DNA from: a virus
Direction: 5' to 3' (one strand)
Length of the DNA: 23,279 nt
Virus record (IMG/VR): IMGVR_UViG_3300032092_001844
Span: 1-23,279 of that record
Shown: piece by piece, positions 460 to 12,509 of the stretch
How positions within the stretch are numbered: position 1 is the stretch's first letter
Layout of the letters: every line of letters starts with the position of its first letter
Program-made: the position numbers and the translations under genes
The notes under the pieces: generated by a model
Told to the model about the DNA's origin: nothing
Database searches by the model: none
The model's input: the letters and a program-made list of their open reading frames with translations, nothing else

Positions 460-1677
460 TTAAGTTTTAACTTTCTTTCGTGACTTAAATTTCACAGGTT
501 TTAGTTGTGGTTTTTGTTCCATTATCTTTTTCTGTTGTTCTTCAAACTGCTTTCGTTGTTCCCCAATCTGCTCCATGATTTTTCGATATTGTTGAAAATT
601 GTTTTCAACTCTTTGAACTTGGTCAGGTGGAACTCTTCCTTCTTCAAGAAGTTTCTTTGCTGCAAGATAACCAATTTCTGGTCTTCCTGCATAAAAAGCA
701 GTTGCTGCTACTTCGTCAAGTGCATGGAACTTATAAACAATATCTGGAACGAATAATATTTCTTCTTGTGGAAATGGTGCTTCTGCTGCTTGTCTAGCAA
801 AAATAAATGCTGCTGCTGGTTGATCATATTTTTGTCGAAGAACTTGAGAAATATGAACAAGTGCTTCAACTCGCTGTGGTCTATAATTATACGCATCCAA
901 TAGAGATGACATAATCTCAGGCCATGGACGATCAAGTAGTGCTCTTGCGATTCCTATACGATAAAGTGAATAGTAAACTTCTTCTGCCCATCCACCCATT
1001 TCTGCTCTTTTTCTATATGCATCAATTGCTTTCTCATATTGTTGAGAATCAAAATATGATTGGGCAAGATAAAACTGATATCTTGTGTTAGTTGGTTCAT
1101 CCAACATTGCCTTTTCTAGTGTTTCTGCATCTCTTGTATACTTTTCAATAACAGAGATACCAACATTTCTTGCACCTAGAGTTCTAGCATCTACTCTATA
1201 GTCTCCTTCAAGTTTCATAAGAACTGGTTGTTCTTTAATTGAACATGCTGGATATTCATGAAGAACTCCTCTATATTCCCACTTAGATTCTGTCTTGAAT
1301 ATTTGAGTTCTCCACCAAGAAAAGTCTGGTTTACCGATTCGTAGAACATAACCATCTGCTTCCATCTTCTCTGGAAATACAAAATTACCTTCTACTTTAT
1401 CATCAGCATCAATCATCCAAACATAGTCTGCTTTTCCATCTGCATGACGAAGTGCTAGTGTTCGATTATGACCGAAGTTCTTCCACTCATCTTGGTGGAG
1501 CTCTCCTGGAATTCCTTTTTCTTTGAAAAAGTTTTTAATTATATCCTGAGTTCCATCTGTTGAACCAGTATCTGAAATAATCCAGTAATCAACATACTTG
1601 TAAATTGAATTTAAGCATTCATGAATGATATGAGATTCATTCTTAACGATCATGCAGAGAGCGACTTTTGGTTTCAT
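460..1677 (-). CDS. GT2 family glycosyltransferase with TPR-like region and coiled-coil C-terminus
   Basis: The predicted protein is 405 aa. The N-terminus is a GT-A glycosyltransferase: CMIVKNES near residues 8-15, SDTGSTDGT at 35-43 and the metal-binding WMIDADD ending at residue 93. A following GVLHEYP motif is typical of GT2 proteins that carry TPR repeats (SunS-like or protein-modifying). Residues roughly 190-260 hold TPR-like helices (YLAQSYFDSQQYEKAIDAY), and the last 45 residues are Gln/Lys/Glu-rich and likely coiled coil. The frame extends to a TTG at 1683, but the AAAGGAT ribosome site is correctly spaced for the ATG at 1677, so I chose that start. It has its own late promoter, unlike the other sugar genes. 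The donor sugar and acceptor are unknown; a virion protein acceptor is possible. Confidence 0.82.
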   Translation of the reverse strand: MKPKVALCMIVKNESHIIHECLNSIYKYVDYWIISDTGSTDGTQDIIKNFFKEKGIPGELHQDEWKNFGHNRTLALRHADGKADYVWMIDADDKVEGNFVFPEKMEADGYVLRIGKPDFSWWRTQIFKTESKWEYRGVLHEYPACSIKEQPVLMKLEGDYRVDARTLGARNVGISVIEKYTRDAETLEKAMLDEPTNTRYQFYLAQSYFDSQQYEKAIDAYRKRAEMGGWAEEVYYSLYRIGIARALLDRPWPEIMSSLLDAYNYRPQRVEALVHISQVLRQKYDQPAAAFIFARQAAEAPFPQEEILFVPDIVYKFHALDEVAATAFYAGRPEIGYLAAKKLLEEGRVPPDQVQRVENNFQQYRKIMEQIGEQRKQFEEQQKKIMEQKPQLKPVKFKSRKKVKT

Positions 1678-1696
1678 AATCAATATCCTTTAATTA

Positions 1697-1704
1697 TATT
1701 TATA
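1697..1704 (-). promoter_or_regulatory. T4-type late promoter TATAAATA for the GT2-TPR gene
   Basis: A perfect TATAAATA on the minus strand lies 19 bases before the ATG at 1677. With T4 spacing the transcript would start near 1691 and carry the AAAGGAT ribosome site. The element overlaps the 3' end of gmd (stop codon at 1700-1702), so the last gene of the island can be expressed late, separately from the sugar-synthesis genes. Confidence 0.75.
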
Positions 1705-2752
1705 CAAAACTAGAACCAGTAGGATTTAATTTTTTATCATATATCTCAATGATTCTTTCTTTTCTTGCTAACTCAAAGTCATGATCTACCATCATATCAA
1801 TTAGTTGATATACATCTGTTTTTGGTTCCCATCCTAGTTTCTCTTTTGCTTTAGTTGGATTACCTAATAGTTGATCTACTTCAGCAGGACGATAATATTT
1901 TTCATCAACTTCAACATAATCCAAATAATTCATACTGTATCGGGCAAATGCCTTTTGACAGAATTCTCGAACAGTTATCATTTTCCCAGTAGCAACTACA
2001 TAATCATCAGGTTTATCATGTTGTAACATCATCCACATTGCTTCAACATAGTCTCCTGCAAATCCCCAATCACGATATGCATCTAGATTACCAAGATATA
2101 ATTTCTTCTGAAGACCTTGATAAATTCTACCAACTGCTCTAGTAATTTTACGAGTTACAAATGTTTCCCCTCTACGTGGGCTTTCGTGGTTAAACAAAAT
2201 TCCACATGAAGCGTGTATATCGTATGATTCTCTATAATTTACTGTTAAATAATGTCCATAAGTTTTTGCACATCCATATGGAGATCTTGGATAAAATGGA
2301 GTTGTTTCTTTTTGTGGTACTTCTTGAACCTTACCAAACATTTCACTACTACTTGCTTGATAATAACGTATTTGTTTTCCTGTAAGTGTTTGTACAGTTC
2401 GTATTGCTTCTAGTACGTTTAATGTACCAATTCCAACTGTTTCTCCAGTATAAACTGGAGCATCAAATGAAACTCTGACATGACTTTGTGCTCCAAGATT
2501 ATAGATTTCATCTGGATTACATTTATGAATTAATTTTTCAATTGTTGTATAATCTGTTAAGTCACCATAATGTAAAAATAAAGATTTATTATATACTTCT
2601 GGATTTTGAATATGATGTTCTAGTCTTGATGTATTAAACGAAGAAGATCTACGAATAATTCCATGTACTTCATAACCTTTAGATAAAAGTAAATCTACTA
2701 AATATGATCCGTCTTGACCAGAAATGCCTGTTATTAGTGCTACTTTTTTCAT
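1700..2752 (-). CDS. gmd: GDP-mannose 4,6-dehydratase
   Basis: This 350-aa short-chain dehydrogenase converts GDP-D-mannose to GDP-4-keto-6-deoxy-D-mannose, the precursor of GDP-fucose, GDP-colitose and GDP-perosamine. It has the family-typical NADP-binding [10 protein letters not shown] at residues 9-18, RRSSSFNT at 34-41, the active-site SSSEMFG at 134-140 and the YGCAK (YxxxK) pair at 159-163. A further family block, [16 protein letters not shown], starts at residue 188. The length is normal for Gmd. It lies 1 base downstream of the RfbH-like gene, so it belongs to the sugar operon. GT10 fucosyltransferases normally use GDP-fucose, which fits the two GT10-like genes upstream. No unambiguous GDP-fucose synthase is present; the SDR at 4099-4932 is a candidate. 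Confidence 0.95.
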
Positions 2753-2753
2753 A

Positions 2754-4097
2754 TTAAACTCTAATATTATCTGCTTTATCGAAGTAATTATTAACTACTG
2801 TTTCAATATAATCTAGTTGTTCATCAGTAATAACTGGACTAGTTCCTAAAAAAAATGTATCTGTTGTAACTTTCGTTGATACTGGAAAATCATTTTTAGC
2901 ATTACCAGAATAAATTCCTTCATATGCTGGTTGAAGAAGAACATTTCCACCAAAATAATTTCTAGTCTGTATCTTATTATCTTCAAGATACATAGTAAAT
3001 TCATTTCTCTTAAGATATATTCTATCTCTTATTGTTAATGGAAATGCAAACCAAGAAGGATCTGATTTTTCTGTTGCTTTTGGTAAATGAAATACTTTAT
3101 CATATTTTGAAAATATTTGATAAAGACGATTAAAGTTTTTCTTACGAATTTTAATTATTTCTTCTAATTTTTTAAGTTGTACAAGACCAATCGCTGCTTG
3201 CAAATCTAGTGGTTTTAAATTAAAACCAATTTCCTCATAAACATATTTGTGGTCAAAAATTTCATCTGGGAAACTTGGCAACCAATTGCTAAATCTTTTT
3301 TTGCACATTCCATTTTTTAAACATGCTGAACCTTTTCCATAGCAATAACATCCTCGTCCCCACTCTCGTAAACTTTTAATAACAGTTTCTTGTTGATCTG
3401 TATTACATGCAACAAATCCACCTTCACCCATTGTAATATGGTGTGCTGGATAAAATGAACAAGATGCAAAGTCTCCAAATGATCCTAGTAATTTTCCATC
3501 ATATGTACTCCCAAGAGCATCACAACAATCTTCTAGTAAAATAAGATTATATTTGTTAACGATATCCATCAAACGATCCATATTTGGTGGATTTCCAAGA
3601 ACATGTGCAAATACTAAAACTTTTGCTCCATTTTTTGCTGCTTCTTCCACCTGATCTAAATTCAGATTCAAAGTATCAAGTTCAATATCAACAAAAATTG
3701 GTTCAAAATTATTTTGAATAATAGGATTTATTGTTGTTGGAAATCCAGCAGCAGGAGTTATTATCTTAGTTCCAATTGGAAGATTATATAGTCTTTTCGA
3801 CTTTAGAGCAGATATCATCAAAAGATTTGCACTTGATCCACTATTTGTCAATGCCCCATATTGTTTTCCTAATTTACTTTTAAATTCTCTCTCAAATCTG
3901 ACTCCATTTTCTCCAAGAGCAAACCAACCATCTAAAAGACATTCAACTCCAGAAATATACTCATCTTTTGTTAAGTATGATCCAGAATATTGAATCCAAT
4001 CTTTTCCAGGTATCCATTTTTTCTGTTTTAATTCAACTATAGTTTCAATATTTTTTCTTAGATGTTCTTTATGAATATTCACATTTATTTCAATCAT
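2754..4097 (-). CDS. RfbH/DdhC-like NDP-4-keto-6-deoxyhexose 3-dehydratase (DegT fold)
   Basis: The 447-aa protein has the DegT/DnrJ/EryC1 PLP-fold. The position that binds PLP through Lys in sugar aminotransferases is His here ([14 protein letters not shown], His220), the hallmark of PMP-dependent 3-dehydratases such as E1/RfbH and ColD. Four Cys (250, 252, 259, 265) cluster directly after REWGRG, the place where RfbH/E1 enzymes bind a [2Fe-2S] cluster; ColD lacks this cluster. NSGSSANL at 85-92 and the PLP-ring Asp in [11 protein letters not shown] (Asp190) are conserved. The family removes the C3 hydroxyl from a 4-keto-6-deoxy sugar to make 3,6-dideoxyhexoses. RfbH enzymes use CDP-sugars, while the adjacent gmd makes a GDP-sugar, so the substrate is uncertain. 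No reductase partner (E3-like) is visible in the window. Confidence 0.88.
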
Positions 4098-4098
4098 T

Positions 4099-4932
4099 TT
4101 AAGTTTCCAATATTTTATCTATTGCTTGATACACTGTTGTTTGTGGAGTGTATTGTAAGTTAATCAATTTAGTATTGTCAAGATAAATATTTTCAATTTG
4201 AACATTTTTATGAAATTCTGGAGTTTCTATTGATATAATTTTACTATAAGATTTTAGTTTTTCTTTAGCATAATAAATTATATCTTTAATAAAAACTGGT
4301 TCTGAATTTGATATATTAATTATTTCATTATAATTTGCACGTTCTATGCAAGTATTAATAGCACGACAACAATCATCAACAAACATATAATCTCTTACAA
4401 CATTACCATTATTATATAATTCAATATCTTCATTATTTTTAAGTTTATCAATTAAATACTGAATAGCATTTTTCTTTTTAGATATTTTTTTATCATTACT
4501 TCCAATTATATTGGTAAGTCTTAATATTCTATATTTTATATTAAATGTATCGCAATATGATATTAATAATTTTTCAGCGGCGTGTTTTGTTATAGAATAA
4601 AATCCTGTTGGATTACATCTAGATGTTTCTTTTGCTGGAAAATCATTAGTTTTTCCATAAACAAACCAAGAACTTATAAAATTAAAAGTTACTGGTGTTT
4701 TTTCGTTTATTTTTTTACATTCTTCTAATACAGAAATAAGTTTTATCAAATTTGTATTAATATCTAAATATGGATCTGTGTAAACATTATAATTATCAGT
4801 AGTGCTAATAAAATAAAGAATATCTTTACTTTTTGGTATATTAATATTTTTTTCTATAGAAATACATTTATCCTGATATAAAGAAATAAATCTAGAACCA
4901 ATAAAACCAGAAGAACCAAAAATAGATATCAT
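4099..4932 (-). CDS. NAD(P)-dependent sugar epimerase/dehydratase (extended SDR)
   Basis: The 277-aa protein is a short extended SDR. GSSGFIG at residues 6-12 is the Rossmann dinucleotide-binding loop, SS at 87-88 supplies the active-site Ser region, and YSITK at 112-116 is the YxxxK catalytic pair. A DYMFVDDCCRAI motif in the C-terminal half (VVRDYMFVDD) is typical of NDP-sugar epimerases and reductases. It is shorter than GalE or Gmd and closer to RmlD-type reductases in length. It is separated by 1 base from the dehydratase downstream and 3 bases from the fusion gene upstream. Likely roles are reduction or epimerisation at C4 of a keto-sugar, possibly the GDP-fucose or colitose synthase step; the sequence alone does not decide. 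Confidence 0.8.
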   Translation of the reverse strand: MISIFGSSGFIGSRFISLYQDKCISIEKNINIPKSKDILYFISTTDNYNVYTDPYLDINTNLIKLISVLEECKKINEKTPVTFNFISSWFVYGKTNDFPAKETSRCNPTGFYSITKHAAEKLLISYCDTFNIKYRILRLTNIIGSNDKKISKKKNAIQYLIDKLKNNEDIELYNNGNVVRDYMFVDDCCRAINTCIERANYNEIINISNSEPVFIKDIIYYAKEKLKSYSKIISIETPEFHKNVQIENIYLDNTKLINLQYTPQTTVYQAIDKILET

Positions 4933-4935
4933 AAA

Positions 4936-7509
4936 TTATATTTTAAAATTTTCGCTTTCTAGTTCTTTAATGTTTATAAAAATTACGCCTTTATTTATTA
5001 AATCTTGATTATTTGTTTTAATAAATTCGAAGAAATTCCATGCTAAGACAATTACTACGTTTGGAATATTATTTAAAAAGTATTCCTTATTTTTTATTGG
5101 TATATTAACGCAAGGAATATATTTTCCAGTCTTAAGTGGATTATCATCAACAGTATAATTTAATTGATTTGAAAATATTTCGTAGTAATTTAATGATGTT
5201 GTTGCTTTTGCTGGAGAACCATATCCACAGATCATATCATAATTTGATTTTAATTTAGAAATATTTTCTCTTACATTTTTCTTAACTTTTTCAATGCGAG
5301 AACCAAAATCATTATAGGTTTCTAGTTTAGTAAGTCCAAAGGAAATTTCATTACGAAGGAATTGATCCACACTAGAATCAATAGCGTTTCCTAAATTCTT
5401 CACATAAACTCGAATAGAACCTCCGTGAGTATTGATATGTTCTACTTTAACAACGGAAAAGTTTAATCTATTGAAGAAATTATTAATAGATGTAACACTC
5501 CAATAATTTGTATGCTCATGGTAGATATTATCAAAAGTCATATCCTTTATAGTGTCTAGCAAATATTGAACTTCAACAATAAAAGTTCCATCTGTTTCTA
5601 AAATCTCAAATGCACCCTTTGCAATTTCAGCAAGTTTATCTGAATGTGCAAAAACATTTGATGCTGTAACCAGTTTTGCCTTGCCATAATTCTTAACAAC
5701 ATTCTTTGCAGTTTTTATATCAAAGTAAGTGTTTAGGGTCTTGATCTTATTTTTATTGGCAAGTTTAGCAATATTCTTTGCTGGTTCGATACCAATAACT
5801 TTGACACCCCTTTCCATAAGTGGTTTCAAAGCAATACCATCGTTGCTTCCAATATCAACAACTAGAGTATTTGAATTCAATCCAAGTTCAGAGATATACT
5901 TATCAGCAACATCTTCAAAATGTTTTCTGAAAGTTGCCGCAGTGGACGAAACATAAAGATAATTATCAAACATCTTTTCTGGTGGAACGACTACAGAAAG
6001 TTGACAATTATGACACTTGGGGCAATAATTCATCTCAAGTGGATATGTTTCAGATTTAACATCAGACGAATCTATAAGATTATTTGCGAGTGGTGAAGCA
6101 CCAAGAGAAATAACACGCTCAAGATGTTTATTATTACAGCATCTACAGGTTGTTTTATAACTAGCGAGTAGTTTATCTCGCATTTCATCATCTACCAGTT
6201 TATATGGAATTGTATGGGTTACTCCATAGTTTTCATGTTCACGCTCACCACGAACCAAATTTAAAAACACAGAATCTTCTGTAAATACCATTGTATGTGC
6301 TACATTTGGTTTGATGATTGCAATATCACCTTCATTGATAAGTCGAGTTTCAATTGGAGCATCGGGAATTGAAAGATCCTTGATAACACTAATATATTGT
6401 CCTTTTACAAGAAGACATTTCTGTTCTTGGATTGGATGATAATGATTGGCACGAACAGTACCTTTTTTAGATTCAATATATCCAATAAGATTGATTGGTT
6501 CGGTTAGTTCATAATTATTAATTCTTCCACGGGAATCCACAAATTCCTTTCCACCACGATCAATGTATTCAAGAGCAGGATTTATATTCTTCACTGACCA
6601 ATTGGTAATCATTTCCTTCAAACATTCTTTAAGATTATAACGGAATTCAAATCCTGTTCTAAGAAGTTTATCATTAGAAATAGTATAACCAAGATTTGGA
6701 ATTTCATCTTGAGTTTCAACTATATTTAACTTTGGATTAATCTCTTTACAAAGTTCAGCAACTTGCTTAACTGTCATATTTTCTTTGGCAAGATGAAAAA
6801 TTTCTCTCTGAATATCCGTTTTTTCTGCCATAAACTTCATACAGCGAGCAACATCAAATAAAGGAACAAGACTCTTCAATTGAACACCACCTGAGAACAA
6901 TTTGATTGTTCCATTTTGAGATGCAATTTTTGAGAATAGATTTGGCATGATTCCCATACGCATCGTATCGGTCGAGTATCCATAAACAGATCCAAGACGA
7001 AGAATGATATAGTTTACACTTGATGCTTGAAGATCTATTTCTGATTGAACTTTTCCAGTGGAATACGTCAAAACAGCACATGTTGGTTCTGTTTCAGAAA
7101 TATCTGTTTTTGTTTCTGCAAATCCTTCATATACTACATGGGTTGAAGGAAATATAAGTTTACAATCCTTTTTGACATGCTTGATTATATTTCTAGTACC
7201 GTCTATGCCAGTAATACGAATTTCATTATCTTGTGTTTCATTCGATTCAGTCTTGGTATATGCTACATCGGTGATACCCGCAAGATGAATAACCACATCT
7301 GCATCGTTTATAATTTTAGAAATTACATCTTCATCCAAGATAGATGCTTGAATAAAATTAATTCCCCAATCCCTAAGTTGCTTGACACGCTCAGAAACAA
7401 ATCGTTTATCAACGACTGTTATATTTTTGAACCTTGCTTCTCCAGAATAAAGTTTGCAAAGTTCAGAACCAATATATCCAAGACCACCAGTAATAACTAT
7501 TTTTTGCAT
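4936..7509 (-). CDS. Three-domain fusion: SDR epimerase/reductase - cupin - Zn-binding sugar C-methyltransferase
   Basis: This 857-aa protein joins three sugar enzymes. Residues 1-305 are an extended SDR with GGLGYIG (8-14) and YSTGK (149-153). Residues about 320-436 are a cupin with HYHPIQEQK (His356, His358, Glu362) and His405, resembling the SDR-cupin layout of CapF/WbjC-type enzymes. Residues about 452-857 match TylC3/TcaB9-type C-methyltransferases: a zinc-binding start (CRCC at 455-458, CPKCHNC at 496-502), the SAM loop VDIGSNDG (551-558), the catalytic YHEH (663-666), GGSIRVY (696-702) and the C-terminal GYGSPAKAT (762-770). Known members methylate a ring carbon of keto-deoxysugars to make branched sugars. 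The reading frame is continuous with no internal stop. AAAGGAAA lies upstream of the ATG. Usually these are separate genes, so this is a likely assembly-line fusion. Confidence 0.9.
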   Translation of the reverse strand: MQKIVITGGLGYIGSELCKLYSGEARFKNITVVDKRFVSERVKQLRDWGINFIQASILDEDVISKIINDADVVIHLAGITDVAYTKTESNETQDNEIRITGIDGTRNIIKHVKKDCKLIFPSTHVVYEGFAETKTDISETEPTCAVLTYSTGKVQSEIDLQASSVNYIILRLGSVYGYSTDTMRMGIMPNLFSKIASQNGTIKLFSGGVQLKSLVPLFDVARCMKFMAEKTDIQREIFHLAKENMTVKQVAELCKEINPKLNIVETQDEIPNLGYTISNDKLLRTGFEFRYNLKECLKEMITNWSVKNINPALEYIDRGGKEFVDSRGRINNYELTEPINLIGYIESKKGTVRANHYHPIQEQKCLLVKGQYISVIKDLSIPDAPIETRLINEGDIAIIKPNVAHTMVFTEDSVFLNLVRGEREHENYGVTHTIPYKLVDDEMRDKLLASYKTTCRCCNNKHLERVISLGASPLANNLIDSSDVKSETYPLEMNYCPKCHNCQLSVVVPPEKMFDNYLYVSSTAATFRKHFEDVADKYISELGLNSNTLVVDIGSNDGIALKPLMERGVKVIGIEPAKNIAKLANKNKIKTLNTYFDIKTAKNVVKNYGKAKLVTASNVFAHSDKLAEIAKGAFEILETDGTFIVEVQYLLDTIKDMTFDNIYHEHTNYWSVTSINNFFNRLNFSVVKVEHINTHGGSIRVYVKNLGNAIDSSVDQFLRNEISFGLTKLETYNDFGSRIEKVKKNVRENISKLKSNYDMICGYGSPAKATTSLNYYEIFSNQLNYTVDDNPLKTGKYIPCVNIPIKNKEYFLNNIPNVVIVLAWNFFEFIKTNNQDLINKGVIFINIKELESENFKI

Positions 7510-7536
7510 TTTAAATATTTTCCTTTATAATAAAGA

Positions 7537-8271
7537 TTATTTGTAACTATTCCAATTTATGTATCCTGGTAAACAAGCACTATGTCCGCTATAACTAGGA
7601 ATAGGACTATATAATATTCTTCCCTTTTCTGCTAAATTATCAAATAATTCAATATCTTTTGCTTTACCTGGAGCAAAAGGTTTTGTCCACTTTGTAATAA
7701 TTTCAAAATCTTCTTTTAGTGTTTTAACTTGTGCAGCATAAGTCCAACAAGTTAAATTAGTGGTTCTCCACCAACCAGACTTCAATAGATAAATTTTTGA
7801 TTTAATATCTTGATTTGGTCCATGTTCACAGTGATTTATATATCTATTATAATTAGAATCCCACATAAATGGATAATATTTATCTGGATGATCATATAAT
7901 GTTACATAATTATTATTTCCAAAACATGAAAACATTTCGATAAGAGCAAATTTACTGCCTGGTCTATGAAGATAGTCACCTTCTACAAAATAGATTATAG
8001 TATCATCTGAATTTTCTGATATGGCATCAACTGTAACATTGTAAAATCCTAAAGCATTTCCATCATTTGTAATTTTATATTCAATATCTTTATCACTACA
8101 AAGTTTTACAACCTCGTCAATAGTAGTTTGTTCACAATTGTCTAGATAAATTATCAATTCCTTTTTATCTGGATTAAAATTATTAATAAAACTATTTAAA
8201 CAAATTTTCCAAGTACAACCATGTCCCATGTAAGATTTATCATATAATCTATAATAGCATTTTATATTCAT
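7537..8271 (-). CDS. Putative GT-A glycosyltransferase
   Basis: The predicted protein is 244 aa. The N-terminal half looks like a nucleotide-sugar-binding GT-A fold (IYLDNCEQ near 41-48, NALGFYN near 72-78), and IIYFVEGDYLHRPG around residues 92-105 supplies an EGD motif in place of the usual DxD. The C-terminal half has aromatic and His-rich motifs (TLYDHPDKYYPF, SGWWRTT, SYSGHS). The frame can start at a TTG at 8286 overlapping the upstream stop, but the ATG at 8271 follows a GTGGAT sequence and gives a natural N-terminus (MNIKCYYRLYD). The donor and acceptor are unknown. It lies in a very AT-rich stretch with the DUF5672-like gene. Confidence 0.68.
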   Translation of the reverse strand: MNIKCYYRLYDKSYMGHGCTWKICLNSFINNFNPDKKELIIYLDNCEQTTIDEVVKLCSDKDIEYKITNDGNALGFYNVTVDAISENSDDTIIYFVEGDYLHRPGSKFALIEMFSCFGNNNYVTLYDHPDKYYPFMWDSNYNRYINHCEHGPNQDIKSKIYLLKSGWWRTTNLTCWTYAAQVKTLKEDFEIITKWTKPFAPGKAKDIELFDNLAEKGRILYSPIPSYSGHSACLPGYINWNSYK

Positions 8272-8282
8272 ATTATCCACTT

Positions 8283-9002
8283 TCAATCAATTAAATTAAA
8301 TATTTTTTTATTTTCTAAAATATTTTTTACATCTTTTAAATTATGTTTTCCATGAAATCCAAACGATTCATTAAAATCATTATATTTAAAAGTTCTAGTT
8401 TCTATTGAAAATTTATAAGCAGTATCTATATCAGCAAATTTTATATTTTTATTTTTAAAATATTGATACATTAAGCAGCATAAAAATACATCTTCATTTG
8501 CACTGGAATTATAATTTACTGTTGAACATTCTTCTATAAATTTTTTACTCCTCAAACAAAATCCACCATTCCCTACAGCATTTTTATATTCAGTAACCCA
8601 TCCGAAAGGTTCTTCGTCTTTATTTTTTAACCAAGGAGCACCAATATAATCATAATTTAAAAAATTATTATCCCATAAATTTGGATTTATAATAAATCCA
8701 TCATCATGAATCATTAAAAAATGAGAACAATTTATATTTTTAATATATTCATATAAATATTTTATACAAAAAATATTATATTGATAATATGATAATTGTG
8801 GAATTTTAACTAAATTAATATTACAATTTGATTTTTCTAAATGGTCATATTCTTTATCAATAGAATTTGTAAAATGTATTGAATATTTAAATTTAAGTTC
8901 TGAATTACAATGATTTATTATATTATTTAAATTATTATACTTATTAATATTAAATTCTCTACCATCAATTGTTATCAAACAAACATCATTTATATTTTTC
9001 AT
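8283..9002 (-). CDS. DUF5672-like putative glycosyltransferase
   Basis: The 239-aa protein has a motif series I associate with the DUF5672 family: FLMIHDDGFI (HDDG at 99-102), YDYIGAPW at 117-124 and VGNGGFCLRS at 143-152. The acidic HDDG motif and position among glycosyltransferases suggest a GT-A-like transferase, but the enzymatic activity of the family is not established to my knowledge. The codons are extremely A/T-rich, with long Asn/Ile/Lys runs, more than in the replication genes. It sits 6 bases downstream of the methyltransferase gene and its stop overlaps the possible TTG start of the next gene. Confidence 0.75.
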   Translation of the reverse strand: MKNINDVCLITIDGREFNINKYNNLNNIINHCNSELKFKYSIHFTNSIDKEYDHLEKSNCNINLVKIPQLSYYQYNIFCIKYLYEYIKNINCSHFLMIHDDGFIINPNLWDNNFLNYDYIGAPWLKNKDEEPFGWVTEYKNAVGNGGFCLRSKKFIEECSTVNYNSSANEDVFLCCLMYQYFKNKNIKFADIDTAYKFSIETRTFKYNDFNESFGFHGKHNLKDVKNILENKKIFNLID

Positions 9003-9008
9003 ATATTA

Positions 9009-9560
9009 TTACTTGATTTTATTATGAATCCAACACATTTCTGTAAAATATAAATTTTCATTTATATGCTCGTGTACTGCTCGAACAACTCCAGGAAATG
9101 CGGGATAATCATGTCCTGCAAGTATTCCTCCAATTTTTACTTTTGGATACCATACTTTTATATCTTCATTCACACATTCATAATCGTGACAAGCATCTAT
9201 AAATACAAAATCTAAACTATTATCTTCATATTGTTTAGATGCTTCTACTGAAGTCATCTTCAATACATTATAATTATTTTCAAATGGTTTCATATTTGAT
9301 ATAAAAATATCATATAGATTAGAAGTATCAATATTATTATGTTCTGGTCCACCCTCAAATGTATCAACACAATCAAATTTTATTTTTTTATTACTATTCA
9401 AAATTTCAGTAATCATAAATGCTGATGATTTACCTTTCCATGAACCCACCTCTACAAAATGTGCTCCTGTTGGAAATAAATTAACCATTGATTTATATAA
9501 ATTTGGATAAGTAAACCAATCTTCTCCAAATTGAGGTTCTGTATAAATATGTTTTAACAT
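9009..9560 (-). CDS. Class I SAM-dependent methyltransferase (Methyltransf_24-like)
   Basis: The 183-aa protein carries VEVGSWKGKS at residues 36-45 (SAM motif I), an acidic residue closing strand 2 (CVDTFEG, Asp66), FIDACHDY at 120-127 and GGILAGHDY at 144-152. These motifs match small methyltransferases common in glycan clusters, often acting on sugar hydroxyls. It starts 7 bases inside the upstream glycosyltransferase gene, with an AAAGGAT ribosome site before the ATG. Its probable role is O-methylation of a sugar in the same glycan; a small-molecule substrate cannot be excluded. Confidence 0.82.
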   Translation of the reverse strand: MLKHIYTEPQFGEDWFTYPNLYKSMVNLFPTGAHFVEVGSWKGKSSAFMITEILNSNKKIKFDCVDTFEGGPEHNNIDTSNLYDIFISNMKPFENNYNVLKMTSVEASKQYEDNSLDFVFIDACHDYECVNEDIKVWYPKVKIGGILAGHDYPAFPGVVRAVHEHINENLYFTEMCWIHNKIK

Positions 9561-10156
9561 GTTTTTATATCCTTTGTTGTAAATTTACTTTGTTCATATT
9601 CCCAACCTGCTGGACTTATTCCTATTTTAATTTTTGTATTTTGATTAATGCTTGCAAAATTATATAATTTTGTAATATTAATATTATTATCAATCGTATT
9701 AAATAAATCAACTAATATACAATGTTCTGTACAATTCCATTCAACAAACATTTTTTCTTTACATCTGGTTTCCCAATCTCGTAGAAACTCTTTACTTTTT
9801 TCTGTATTTGAAAAATAAATAACTGCTGCATGTGGTGTTTTCATATCATGCTCCCGTATACAAAATCCTATATCACAGTTCAGTTTTTCAAACTCTATTG
9901 GTTTTTCTATTACAGAGGCATCTGCATCTATCCATATAACTGGTTCATTATATTTTTCTAATTTATTTAATATAAATGTTGGTTTATATAAATTTAATTT
10001 ATCGTATGCTTGAATGTGCATTTTAGAAAAATCTATATTTTCTCCATCAATAAAATAATTAAATTTTTCTATTTGATTTTTTAGATTTAAATAACAATTT
10101 TTATAAAAACATGATTCGTTTGGATTTTTATCATAATAATATGTTATAAATTTCAT
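9554..10156 (-). CDS. Small DxD glycosyltransferase, second copy of duplicated module
   Basis: The 200-aa protein has EPVIWIDADASV with a DxD-type metal/nucleotide-sugar motif at residues 77-79, preceded by YKPTFILNKLEKY. The same arrangement occurs in the gene at 10995-11657 (KPKFILDIFQEKKKPFVWMDVDSL), so the two are paralogues. The family resembles small GT-A proteins near other phage and bacterial glycan genes. It overlaps the upstream GT10-like gene by ATGA, which suggests coupled translation. It is shorter and more AT-rich than its paralogue. The specific sugar is unknown. Confidence 0.7.
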   Translation of the reverse strand: MKFITYYYDKNPNESCFYKNCYLNLKNQIEKFNYFIDGENIDFSKMHIQAYDKLNLYKPTFILNKLEKYNEPVIWIDADASVIEKPIEFEKLNCDIGFCIREHDMKTPHAAVIYFSNTEKSKEFLRDWETRCKEKMFVEWNCTEHCILVDLFNTIDNNINITKLYNFASINQNTKIKIGISPAGWEYEQSKFTTKDIKTC

Positions 10157-10998
10157 AATTGATTGATCCTATTAAAAAGTATATCATCTGATCCTTCTAT
10201 TTTTCTAACTGTTTCAAAATTTTCTTTTATTGCATCTATTTTACTATAATAATAATCAGATGTCAATAAATTTAAATCTATTTGATCATTGATTATTATC
10301 ATACCATCTGTGTTGAAATACTTACCAATATCAGGAGCACCCCAATACACAGGTATAGTTCCAGTTGCAAAACAATCAGTTAATTTTTCAGTAAAATAAG
10401 TTTCATACTTATCATTTTCTATAACAATCTGAAACATATAATCGTTAATTTGACCACTTTTATCAGGCCAAGGAGAACCATTATCACCAACTCTTTGTGT
10501 ATTGGCAGCACCACCAAATATATCAATTTTACCTTTAAGATTCTCCGCTATTTGATGTCGTAAAGCATGACCTGGAGTTACTTTTTTAGATGAAGCAAAC
10601 ATCGAACATAATTTAGACTTTGAAAAAACTTTATGTTCTTTTACCCAAGGTAAGTTACTTCCAGCAAATGAGAAATGAAATTTCGAACTTTTCTTGCAAT
10701 ATTCCCTATCTGCAAAATAAATAGCATCATAATTCTCTTCAAGTTGTGGAATAAGTTGATCGAGTACATTGCGAGGTACTGACCAAGCATGAAAAATAGC
10801 CCTTGATTCGCAAATCCATGCAATTTTTTTCTCGCCTGGTTTTTTCCTATAGTTTATTCCATGTGGAATAGCAGAATCCATAAAAACTTTGATTGGACTA
10901 TCTTCTTGCGTCCATTCAAAATTTTTAGGTTTTAAATCTGAATTAGAAGAAAATTGAGTTAAGAACGGAGCACCGATTGCTTGTAAGTATGTTGTCAT
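10153..10998 (-). CDS. GT10 (fucosyltransferase-like) glycosyltransferase, copy 2
   Basis: The 281-aa protein has the GT10 donor-site signature from residue 194: ENDKYETYFTEKLTD, then FATGTIPVYWGAPDI. It corresponds to the alpha-1,3-fucosyltransferase motif with Glu-Asn, Y-TEKL and G-IPV-WG. Upstream blocks IAWICESRAIFH (59-70) and FAGSNLPWV are shared with copy 1. GT10 enzymes normally transfer L-fucose from GDP-fucose; gmd in the same island could supply the pathway. A GGGGGATAG ribosome site precedes the ATG, and both ends overlap neighbouring genes by ATGA. No membrane segment is seen, so it is probably cytoplasmic. The exact deoxysugar donor is uncertain. Confidence 0.87.
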   Translation of the reverse strand: MTTYLQAIGAPFLTQFSSNSDLKPKNFEWTQEDSPIKVFMDSAIPHGINYRKKPGEKKIAWICESRAIFHAWSVPRNVLDQLIPQLEENYDAIYFADREYCKKSSKFHFSFAGSNLPWVKEHKVFSKSKLCSMFASSKKVTPGHALRHQIAENLKGKIDIFGGAANTQRVGDNGSPWPDKSGQINDYMFQIVIENDKYETYFTEKLTDCFATGTIPVYWGAPDIGKYFNTDGMIIINDQIDLNLLTSDYYYSKIDAIKENFETVRKIEGSDDILFNRINQL

Positions 10999-11657
10999 CT
11001 ATCCCCCACTAAATTATATTTAACAATATCTTCGGTTAATCCCATTTCTCTCAATGATTTTTCTTTAGAAGTACCATCAGCAATTCCCATAGTAATCATT
11101 GGTTTCATGCCTTGTGGGATACCAGTTCCAGGCCATATTGCATAATTTATTGGCAAACATCCTAATTTTAGTTTATTCATAAATTTTGGAAGAACTACAC
11201 CCATTAAGATTTCATGATCAAAAACTTTTTGTCCATTTCCTTTTTCATTCTCTTCACATTGCTCAATCCAATATTTTATAAATTCTTCTACTAATTCGTT
11301 GTAAGAAAAATATATTGGAGATGCTTTTGGAAATCTTGGATCAGTTGATGGATTTGCTAATTGATATGCGAATCCTAGATCAACTTTTCCTTCCATTTCA
11401 TCAAATACACTAAGTTCATTATGAATTAATGAATCTACATCCATCCAAACAAATGGTTTTTTCTTTTCCTGAAAAATATCAAGAATAAATTTTGGTTTTG
11501 CTAAACAATTTAAACGATATTCTCCTCTTGATGGAAGTTCACGAATATCGTGTGGAATATTATTTTCATTACAATTTATACGAAAACGACGAGCATGATC
11601 GCTATAATATGTGCGATCATCAATATCACAATAGAATGATACTATTTCAGTTTTCAT
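10995..11657 (-). CDS. Small DxD glycosyltransferase, first copy of duplicated module
   Basis: The 220-aa protein contains FVWMDVDSLI with a DxD motif at residues 73-75, preceded by KPKFILDIF. The later stretch FDHEILMGVVLPKF and a C-terminal Gly/Pro segment (YAIWPGTGIPQG) are compatible with a small GT-A transferase. It is paralogous to the gene at 9554-10156. Its ATG lies 11 bases inside the upstream GT10-like gene, and its stop forms an ATGA overlap with copy 2 of GT10, so the four genes look translationally coupled. The acceptor and donor are unknown. Confidence 0.7.
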   Translation of the reverse strand: MKTEIVSFYCDIDDRTYYSDHARRFRINCNENNIPHDIRELPSRGEYRLNCLAKPKFILDIFQEKKKPFVWMDVDSLIHNELSVFDEMEGKVDLGFAYQLANPSTDPRFPKASPIYFSYNELVEEFIKYWIEQCEENEKGNGQKVFDHEILMGVVLPKFMNKLKLGCLPINYAIWPGTGIPQGMKPMITMGIADGTSKEKSLREMGLTEDIVKYNLVGDR

Positions 11658-12483
11658 TTATTTGTTTATACAGCATATCATCTGCTGAAAGCAGATTCTG
11701 TACCCTTTCAAAGTTATCTCTAACTGCTTCAATCTTACTATTATACAATTCTTCAGTTAAACTGTCAATATCAAAATTAGGAGTAAGTTCAATTATTCCT
11801 TCATGATTGAAGTAATTACCAATATCAGGAGTACCCCAATATACTGGAATAGTCCCAGTAGCAAATGCATCTGTTAGTTTTTCAGTATAGTAAGTTTCAT
11901 ACTTATCATTCTCAATAATCAAAGAGAATCTATAATCGTTGAGTGCTTCTTCTTTTCCTTCAAATGGTTTACTGCCAAGGCGTTTTGATCCAGCAACTCC
12001 ACCAAAAAGATCAATCTTATCTTTAAAAGTATCAGCAAAGTGATGGCGAAGAGCATGACCAAATGCATACTTCTTTGGAGATGCAATTAGAGAACAATTT
12101 TTTGTTTTGTTATGAATCCCAACATCACGAACCCAAGGAAGATTGCTACCAGCAAATGCAAATTTAATATTTGGATACTTTCCTACTATTGATCTTTCAG
12201 TTGTATATACAACATCATATGCATTTGATATATCCAATAAATGCTTTTCCCACAGATCTCTAGGAATAGAAGACATATGAAAAATTGCACGGGACTCACA
12301 TACCCATGCAATCTTTCTCTCCCCTGGTTTTTTATCTATATTTATTCCAAGAGCAATACCACCATCGATATAAACTTTAGTATCGCAATCTTCTCTAGTC
12401 CATTCAAAAAACTTTGGTTTTAAATTTGAACATGAAGAATGTTCAAGTAGAAATGGAGCACCAATTGCTTGCATTTTGTTCAT
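11647..12483 (-). CDS. GT10 (fucosyltransferase-like) glycosyltransferase, copy 1
   Basis: The predicted protein is 278 aa. The GT10 donor-site block starts at residue 191 (ENDKYETYYTEKLTD, then FATGTIPVYWG to residue 217). Upstream it shares IAWVCESRAIFH and FAGSNLPWVRD with copy 2. The frame extends to a GTG at 12498, but GGTGGAG is ideally placed for the ATG at 12483, giving the start MNKMQAIGAPF, which also aligns with copy 2. It is the first gene of the glycan island, 26 bases after regA. I see no strong promoter in that gap, so it may be read through from the replication operon. Fucose or a related GDP-deoxysugar is the likely donor, by family. Confidence 0.87.
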   Translation of the reverse strand: MNKMQAIGAPFLLEHSSCSNLKPKFFEWTREDCDTKVYIDGGIALGINIDKKPGERKIAWVCESRAIFHMSSIPRDLWEKHLLDISNAYDVVYTTERSIVGKYPNIKFAFAGSNLPWVRDVGIHNKTKNCSLIASPKKYAFGHALRHHFADTFKDKIDLFGGVAGSKRLGSKPFEGKEEALNDYRFSLIIENDKYETYYTEKLTDAFATGTIPVYWGTPDIGNYFNHEGIIELTPNFDIDSLTEELYNSKIEAVRDNFERVQNLLSADDMLYKQINEN

Positions 12484-12509
12484 GATATAAATCTCCACCC
12501 ATATCTATA

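Follow-up and report, generated by a model that had tools for sequence, protein, structure and literature searches.

A phage RfbH/E1-type sugar 3-dehydratase whose gene contexts suggest a host-supplied dTDP-sugar substrate

A sugar gene block in a T4-like phage

The window analyzed here is a whole virus record of 23,279 bases. It carries T4-like genes for the major head protein, tail tube, clamp loader, clamp, translation repressor and late sigma factor and, adjoining the translation repressor gene, a block of sugar-related genes at positions ~460-12,500. Within this block an intact reading frame on the minus strand, running from 4097 to 2754 with the plus strand full of stops, codes for a protein of 447 residues. 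It scores 473.9 bits with the NCBIfam RfbH equivalog NF011936 (cut-off 423) and 264.9 bits with Pfam PF01041, and its best matches among solved structures are those of the Yersinia E1 enzyme (PDB: 3bcx and 3bb8; E ~1e-106 and 1e-105), the ColD structure being matched at E 1e-49. Together with its place in the phage RfbH group described below, these matches uphold the preliminary assignment of this gene (2754-4097, minus strand) to the RfbH/E1-type NDP-4-keto-6-deoxyhexose 3-dehydratases.

On one side, 1 bp away, lies Gmd (1700-2752, minus strand), the GDP-mannose 4,6-dehydratase gene recognized at the outset (TIGR01472, 525 bits; cut-off 415), followed at the end of the block by GT407 (460-1683, minus strand), a GT2-type glycosyltransferase by family match; in 80 loci fetched by Gmd, GT407 directly adjoins Gmd in 17 and RfbH does so in six. 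The other side is occupied by SDR277 (4099-4932, minus strand), which family matches and a tree place among extended SDRs without the 4,6-dehydratase triad motif (SSWFVYG), and which would be the 4-ketoreductase partner of RfbH. Next to it an 857-aa fusion protein (4936-7509, minus strand) joins an SDR to a sugar C-methyltransferase through a middle region that on visual inspection resembles a cupin; the best PDB matches of the methyltransferase part are D-mycarose 3-C-methyltransferase and TcaB9. Relatives of this fusion are found in 13 viral loci with changing neighbors, and a C-methyltransferase gene stands directly before RfbH and SDR277 in L190 and L192-L194, a second arrangement that joins C-methylation and 3-deoxygenation. 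Farther along the block, two similar genes (10153-10998 and 11647-12498, both minus strand) alternate with short glycosyltransferase-like ORFs; the former matches the GT10 (fucosyltransferase) family, and relatives of both occur in many related phage loci. Because glycosyltransferase genes surround the sugar block, its products are likely destined for glycans of the virion or the host surface.

None of the three SDRs in the window exceeds the cut-off for CDP-glucose or dTDP-glucose 4,6-dehydratases; the record, a 23-kb fragment, extends only 2.7 kb past RfbH on one side, and such a dehydratase may lie elsewhere. The window likewise gave no match to rfbF, to the E3-type NAD_binding_1 domain or to a ThDP enzyme, and it thus holds no cassette of the yersiniose type.

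Conserved residues and phylogenetic position

In the 3bb8 chain a lysine replaces the first histidine of an HH pair, and an alignment including this chain equates the catalytic H220 of E1 with H219 of the phage protein (codon 3441-3443, minus strand). A review names the E1 H220K variant and gives a histidine at the site of the PLP-binding lysine as the rule for E1, ColD and SpnQ (PMC8987622). The preliminary description was right that a histidine occupies the position where sugar aminotransferases of PF01041 have their PLP lysine; it had placed this residue at H220, which is the next one and is also invariant. Indeed, H219, H220, C192, C250, C252 and C265 are all invariant across 85 of 85 distinct full-length phage homologues. 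In the alignment, C192 (codon 3522-3524), C250 (3348-3350), C252 (3342-3344) and C265 (3303-3305; all minus strand) line up with the cluster cysteines of E1 and would together bind a [2Fe-2S] cluster. Three of the four cysteines first proposed as ligands are thereby retained. The remaining one, C259 (codon 3321-3323, minus strand), is a cysteine in just 20 of the 85 homologues and was rejected, its place being taken by C192. The cysteine loop is five residues longer than that of E1 in the alignment: 11-12 residues separate the CxC motif from the last cysteine in 17 phage rows, as against seven in all but one of the 28 bacterial rows, the exception being off pattern.

The absence of an iron-sulfur cysteine motif, which would mark ColD, is not seen here, all four cysteines being kept. 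Since histidine is the rule at the lysine site in E1, ColD and SpnQ, its combination with the cysteines is the signature of an E1 relative, no oddity, and the observation of this gene with these residues is far above chance. On these sequence features the phage protein is best classed as a 3-dehydratase of the E1/RfbH/SpnQ kind, an ordinary type of enzyme in an informative setting.

Phylogenetic trees are consistent with this classification. The first was built with 53 of the 85 phage RfbH proteins and 20 of 28 bacterial loci, a motif filter having missed the other eight, some of them cassette-bearing; in it all 53 phage proteins cluster together (99/93; recovered in 98% of bootstrap trees) and separate from 25 bacterial rows. 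A repeat with all 28 Bacteroidota loci, six named bacterial references, 35 phage rows and no outgroups separates phages from bacteria at 100/100. Four long-branched outgroup rows split from RfbH (92/55), the length of these branches leaving the root unsure; the window's protein nests inside RfbH and not with plain aminotransferases, a placement that would have spoken against the preliminary assignment.

An RmlB-like dehydratase is the usual companion of phage RfbH

We gathered the gene-neighborhoods, with flanks of up to 10 kb, of the window and the best 80 of 161 relatives; this set of 81 RfbH loci leans to close kin, and the tallies over it, made with score thresholds of our own setting, are lower bounds as many contigs are short. 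An RmlB-like (dTDP-glucose type) 4,6-dehydratase that we term DH317, an SDR of 317 aa bearing the motif STDEVYG, is encoded in 65 of the 81, so that an RmlB-type dehydratase, as would fit an SpnQ-like enzyme, accompanies RfbH there though not in the window. Counting just the loci whose flanks reach 7 kb or more on each side gives 33 of 37, and dereplication at 85% leaves 44 of 51 with DH317. In L183 the order is SDR277-DH317-RfbH with overlapping ends, and L195 shows a dehydratase-SDR277-RfbH run, again with overlapping ends, in which the dehydratase belongs to a different subgroup and exceeds the curated RmlB cut-off (386.5 bits; cut-off 365.1). In the L185 record, ~8 kb away from RfbH, there are genes for RmlB (475 bits) and for an RmlA-like protein that scores 348 bits against a cut-off of 360.65. 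RmlA is no regular companion: NTP_transferase exceeded its cut-off in eight of 50 records, two of them strongly. In L062, where many genes are broken into short ORFs, sequencing errors may account for the lack of DH317.

The DH317 of L067 has dTDP-glucose 4,6-dehydratase as its best family (283 bits; 69 bits with the CDP model), and because all three DH317 proteins tested (283, 328 and 300 bits) fall below the RmlB cut-off, their nucleotide is uncertain. In a tree of up to 18 of 67 DH317 proteins and samples of other groups, with five identical pairs double-labelled, DH317 joins RmlB (98/93), and RfbG forms a separate clade (100/100). The DH317 pattern and tree, along with the L185 and L195 genes, are the strongest indications that the related phages probably use dTDP-sugars.

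The window belongs to a small clade that departs from this pattern. Its RfbH groups with those of L002, L003 and L004 (100/97), then L009 (100/96), and next with those of L006, L010, L011, L014 and L112 (99/98). DH317 lies upstream of RfbH in L010, L011, L014 and L112, the L006 contig being cut. SDR277 is present in 29 of the 81 loci of the window and the best 80 of 161 relatives, the gene directly after it being DH317 in 17, RfbH in six and some other gene in six. All six loci with the direct SDR277-RfbH pair belong to the window clade (L005 by 90% identity and not by the tree), and the pair is kept in all six. Of the 37 long-flank loci only four are without DH317, three of them (L003, L004 and L009) being members of the window clade. 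The simplest reading is that the dehydratase, together with anything between, was lost from between SDR277 and RfbH in this clade.

CDP-sugar partners, reductases and bacterial loci

Profile searches of a cyanophage-free subset of 50 out of 80 RfbH records recovered neither rfbG nor rfbF over cut-off (0/50 each), weak sub-cut-off matches to rfbF appearing in five. The searches for Fer2, NTP_transferase, gmd and NAD_binding_1 each covered 50 chosen records: NAD_binding_1 was found in none of the 50 and Fer2 in none of the 48 from IMG/VR, Fer2 being present in both cyanophages within a frame of ~100 aa. The complete genome of one cyanophage, RN05-S, is also without NAD_binding_1. Some of the IMG/VR records are large (168, 199 and 212 kb), none being listed as at least 90% complete, and rfbF, rfbG and E3 are likely absent from these phages. 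The absence of the three noted early on for the window is thus general across the related records searched. Two hallmarks of the E1 system, rfbF/rfbG alongside and a dedicated E3, were thus not found in the records searched; the former defines the CDP branch and not the enzyme type.

Supply by the host is plausible, because RmlB exceeds its cut-off in ten of 14 control genomes, as against one of 14 for RfbG and six of 14 for gmd; of the reductase domains, Fer2 occurs in 12 and NAD_binding_1 in ten of these 14 genomes.

Of 395 Bacteroidota genomes, 28 have RfbH over cut-off. At 25 of these 28 loci it is accompanied by rfbF- and rfbG-type genes (family calls confirmed on one example each), two of the other three being at contig ends. 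The highest DH317 match listed for these loci is 72 bits. They too are mostly without an adjacent E3, a flavin-reductase-like gene (cluster 15) being present at four of the 28, and at 17 a ThDP enzyme is encoded no more than six genes away from RfbH (13 acetolactate-synthase-like and four transketolase-like). On Streptomyces plasmids, rfbH stands next to rfbB at two loci, which indicates dTDP use. In nature, then, enzymes of this type are compatible with more than one nucleotide, accompanying rfbF-rfbG in Bacteroidota and rfbB on the Streptomyces plasmids. No nearest bacterial donor emerged from the Bacteroidota genomes and plasmid records sampled. A scan of genome contigs for a bacterial origin yielded a single fragment, 62% identical to the window's RfbH, on a 3.2-kb contig of a Flavobacteriales MAG (L082, DNDT01000114.1) that is possibly a binned phage contig. 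A further match labelled as a Salmonella phage (H2) is an unverified 2.6-kb clone that looks like host DNA, and was excluded as phage evidence.

ThDP enzymes and a possible sugar-branching pathway

A ThDP enzyme, always of one kind per locus, is encoded in 52 of the 81 loci (again the window and the best 80 of 161): 32 are acetolactate-synthase-like, ten split transketolase-like and ten split E1-like. DH317 is present at every one of the 52, with Fisher p = 2e-9 over all loci, 1e-3 for flanks of 7 kb, 1.7e-4 after dereplication and 0.025 after dereplication with flanks of 5 kb, values that serve as guides only as the loci are related. A 263-aa SDR (SDR263) accompanies the ThDP enzyme in 42 of the 52. 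The phage acetolactate-synthase-like enzyme finds its best match in 8rph, which is JanthE, a YerE-like enzyme (PMC12188165); another report names YerE-like enzymes, alpha-ketoacid dehydrogenase-like enzymes and transketolases as sugar-branching ThDP groups (PMC12247030). The split enzymes are short, with median subunit lengths of 212+158 and 210+178 aa, two bacterial transketolase-like examples measuring 273 and 307 aa. By family match, the split subunits at L029:11370-12008, L028:15739-16215, L081:3693-4328 and L065:16872-17408 comprise one cofactor-binding domain each. Some loci also encode a FabG-like SDR, an AroB-like enzyme and an HpcH-type aldolase; the last could supply 2-oxo-acid donors of greater length. 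The AroB-like gene of L026 (12612-13628) resembles AroB-related sugar phosphate lyases (TIGR04425, 316 bits; cut-off 400) and stands beside FabG- and HpcH-like genes, a set that recurs in some Bacteroidota RfbH loci.

Taken together, these contexts allow the tentative proposal, to which we give slightly less than even odds, that T4-like and probably other phages encode their own sugar-branching path. The RmlB-like enzyme and RfbH would make a dTDP-4-keto-3,6-dideoxyhexose, and a carbon branch would then be added by a ThDP enzyme of one of three interchangeable kinds (a YerE-like protein, an E1-like split pair, or a transketolase-like split pair that retains no more than its two cofactor-binding domains); the nucleotide front end would be swapped relative to the CDP-using bacteria, and the window would represent a stripped, host-fed form. 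Among the literature matches listed, seen as titles and the beginnings of abstracts and with subscription papers largely outside, none describes a phage ThDP or branched-sugar cassette. To our knowledge, cassettes able to build branched 3,6-dideoxy sugars have not been known from phages.

Proposed role of the window's RfbH and alternatives

For the window itself we favor, at a rough probability of 0.58, an E1/SpnQ-type 3-dehydratase acting with the SDR277 ketoreductase on dTDP-4-keto-6-deoxyglucose fed by the host, with reducing power from a host reductase. As outlined in the review cited above, the family mechanism proceeds through a PMP Schiff base, histidine-driven loss of the C3 hydroxyl and reduction via the [2Fe-2S] cluster; E1 draws on E3, and SpnQ, acting on a dTDP-sugar, on ferredoxin/flavodoxin systems (PMC8987622). 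With the dehydratase apparently lost in the window's lineage, the host dTDP pathway would have to feed RfbH, a dTDP-sugar being the most likely substrate because RfbH has an RmlB-like dehydratase gene next to it in the related phages. RfbH, as a PMP-dependent [2Fe-2S] enzyme, would then remove the C3 hydroxyl of the NDP-4-keto-6-deoxyhexose with H219 as acid/base; by analogy with SpnQ, a host ferredoxin or flavodoxin and its reductase would take the place of E3. We infer that SDR277 would finally reduce the 4-ketone and so provide the block's glycosyltransferases with an NDP-3,6-dideoxyhexose. Against this reading, the only 4,6-dehydratase in view in the window, Gmd, makes a GDP-sugar, an RmlB-like gene over cut-off is absent there, and the trees hold long branches.

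The preliminary description had left two options, a switch to a GDP-sugar or provision of the missing parts by the host; the second fits the gene contexts better. In the former, RfbH would take GDP-4-keto-6-deoxymannose from Gmd and SDR277 would yield a colitose-like GDP-3,6-dideoxyhexose, making the phage enzyme an iron-sulfur counterpart of ColD. Gmd is indeed the sole 4,6-dehydratase encoded in the window and sits 1 bp from RfbH, L002 repeats the order SDR277-RfbH-Gmd-GT407, and the window clade is without DH317. Nevertheless, Gmd is present in just 14 of the 81 loci (window and best 80 of 161) and is the immediate neighbor of RfbH in five, and no gmd over cut-off was found in the L003, L004 and L009 records (40, 31 and 61 kb), even though the RfbH proteins of L002 and L003 are identical at 437 of 447 positions, differing at ten. 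Because Gmd comes and goes beside near-identical RfbH, adjacency says little on the substrate. In L007 and L008, moreover, Gmd comes after a full DH317-TPP-SDR263-RfbH block that includes its own 4,6-dehydratase, and the neighbors of Gmd vary (RfbH in six of the 80 loci noted above), being the C-methyltransferase fusion, without RfbH, in L169 (same contig as L111). These phages also have another candidate: the fetched loci hold ten DegT-family genes, more distantly related and longer than 330 aa, that are all without the CxC motif, and nine of them (L037, L056, L077, L176, L108, L113, L135, L136 and L157) show a ColD-like histidine site, the tenth being off pattern. In L037 such a cysteine-free gene is directly beside Gmd, while RfbH sits with DH317, which hints that the GDP route, where phages have one, uses a cysteine-free enzyme. 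Gmd is thus probably a mere neighbor, a functional link with RfbH not being supported, and we placed the GDP switch, which we regard as unlikely, behind the dTDP reading.

Still less probable is a supply of CDP-4-keto-6-deoxyglucose by host rfbF and rfbG, as in Salmonella and Yersinia. The phage protein passes the RfbH equivalog cut-off and 25 of the 28 Bacteroidota RfbH loci have rfbF- and rfbG-type genes; against this stand the 0/50 phage records with rfbF or rfbG over cut-off, the RmlB-like gene at 65 of the 81 loci (window and best 80 of 161), and the rarity in hosts of rfbG (one of 14 control genomes) and of RfbH itself (28 of 395 Bacteroidota genomes). That the protein is a plain sugar aminotransferase, or a ColD-like enzyme without an active cluster, seems very improbable: PF01041 covers aminotransferases too, and SpnQ deprived of its reductase shows side transamination according to the review (PMC8987622), but the histidine in place of lysine and the four E1 cysteines are kept in 85 of 85 homologues, the match to E1 far exceeds that to ColD (E 1e-106 and 1e-49), and the protein nests inside RfbH, apart from the four outgroup rows (92/55). 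We give equally little credence to a gene that is non-functional in this phage and drifting to loss for want of supply, as the absence of DH317 from the window clade might suggest, given that the ORF is intact, its catalytic residues are kept and the SDR277-RfbH pair persists in all six loci of the clade.

Implications and comparison with known systems

The standard name rfbH implies CDP-sugars; the gene orders suggest that it misleads for phages, where the substrate is probably a dTDP-sugar. While rfbH already features in lists of viral metabolic genes (PMC10653327, PMC11295528), many phage rfbH genes are part of cassettes with the potential to make branched 3,6-dideoxy sugars. If so, phages would place rare sugars on some structure, be it the virion, a tail fibre or the surface of the host, and the short split ThDP enzymes would be useful test cases for what a ketone-accepting ThDP enzyme needs.

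Among characterized systems, E1/RfbH (ascC, ddhC), the CDP-4-keto-6-deoxyglucose 3-dehydratase of Yersinia and Salmonella, has in common with the phage enzymes the fold family, catalytic histidine, four cysteines and equivalog score; the phage enzymes differ in forming a separate group, in their longer cysteine loop and in having no rfbF, rfbG or E3 over cut-off. SpnQ and the two Streptomyces rfbB-rfbH loci (dTDP) resemble the phage loci in placing RfbH beside an RmlB-type dehydratase, and the Streptomyces loci also in having no dedicated E3 adjacent; SpnQ differs in that its substrate is a 2,6-dideoxy sugar and a 2,3-dehydratase acts before it; no such 2,3-dehydratase was noticed in passing at the phage loci. 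ColD, the GDP-4-keto-6-deoxymannose 3-dehydratase that acts on the product of Gmd, shares with phage RfbH the PLP-enzyme fold and the histidine in place of lysine; it is without an iron-sulfur cluster (PMC8987622), whereas phage RfbH keeps the four cysteines. Finally, the yersiniose-type cassettes (YerE, ErwE, JanthE) and the bacterial RfbH-TPP loci combine RfbH with a ThDP enzyme and SDRs, a likeness that concerns the relatives of the window's phage, the window itself having given no ThDP match; compared with these bacterial systems, the phage cassettes have an RmlB-like front end in place of rfbF-rfbG, and shorter split transketolase-like enzymes.
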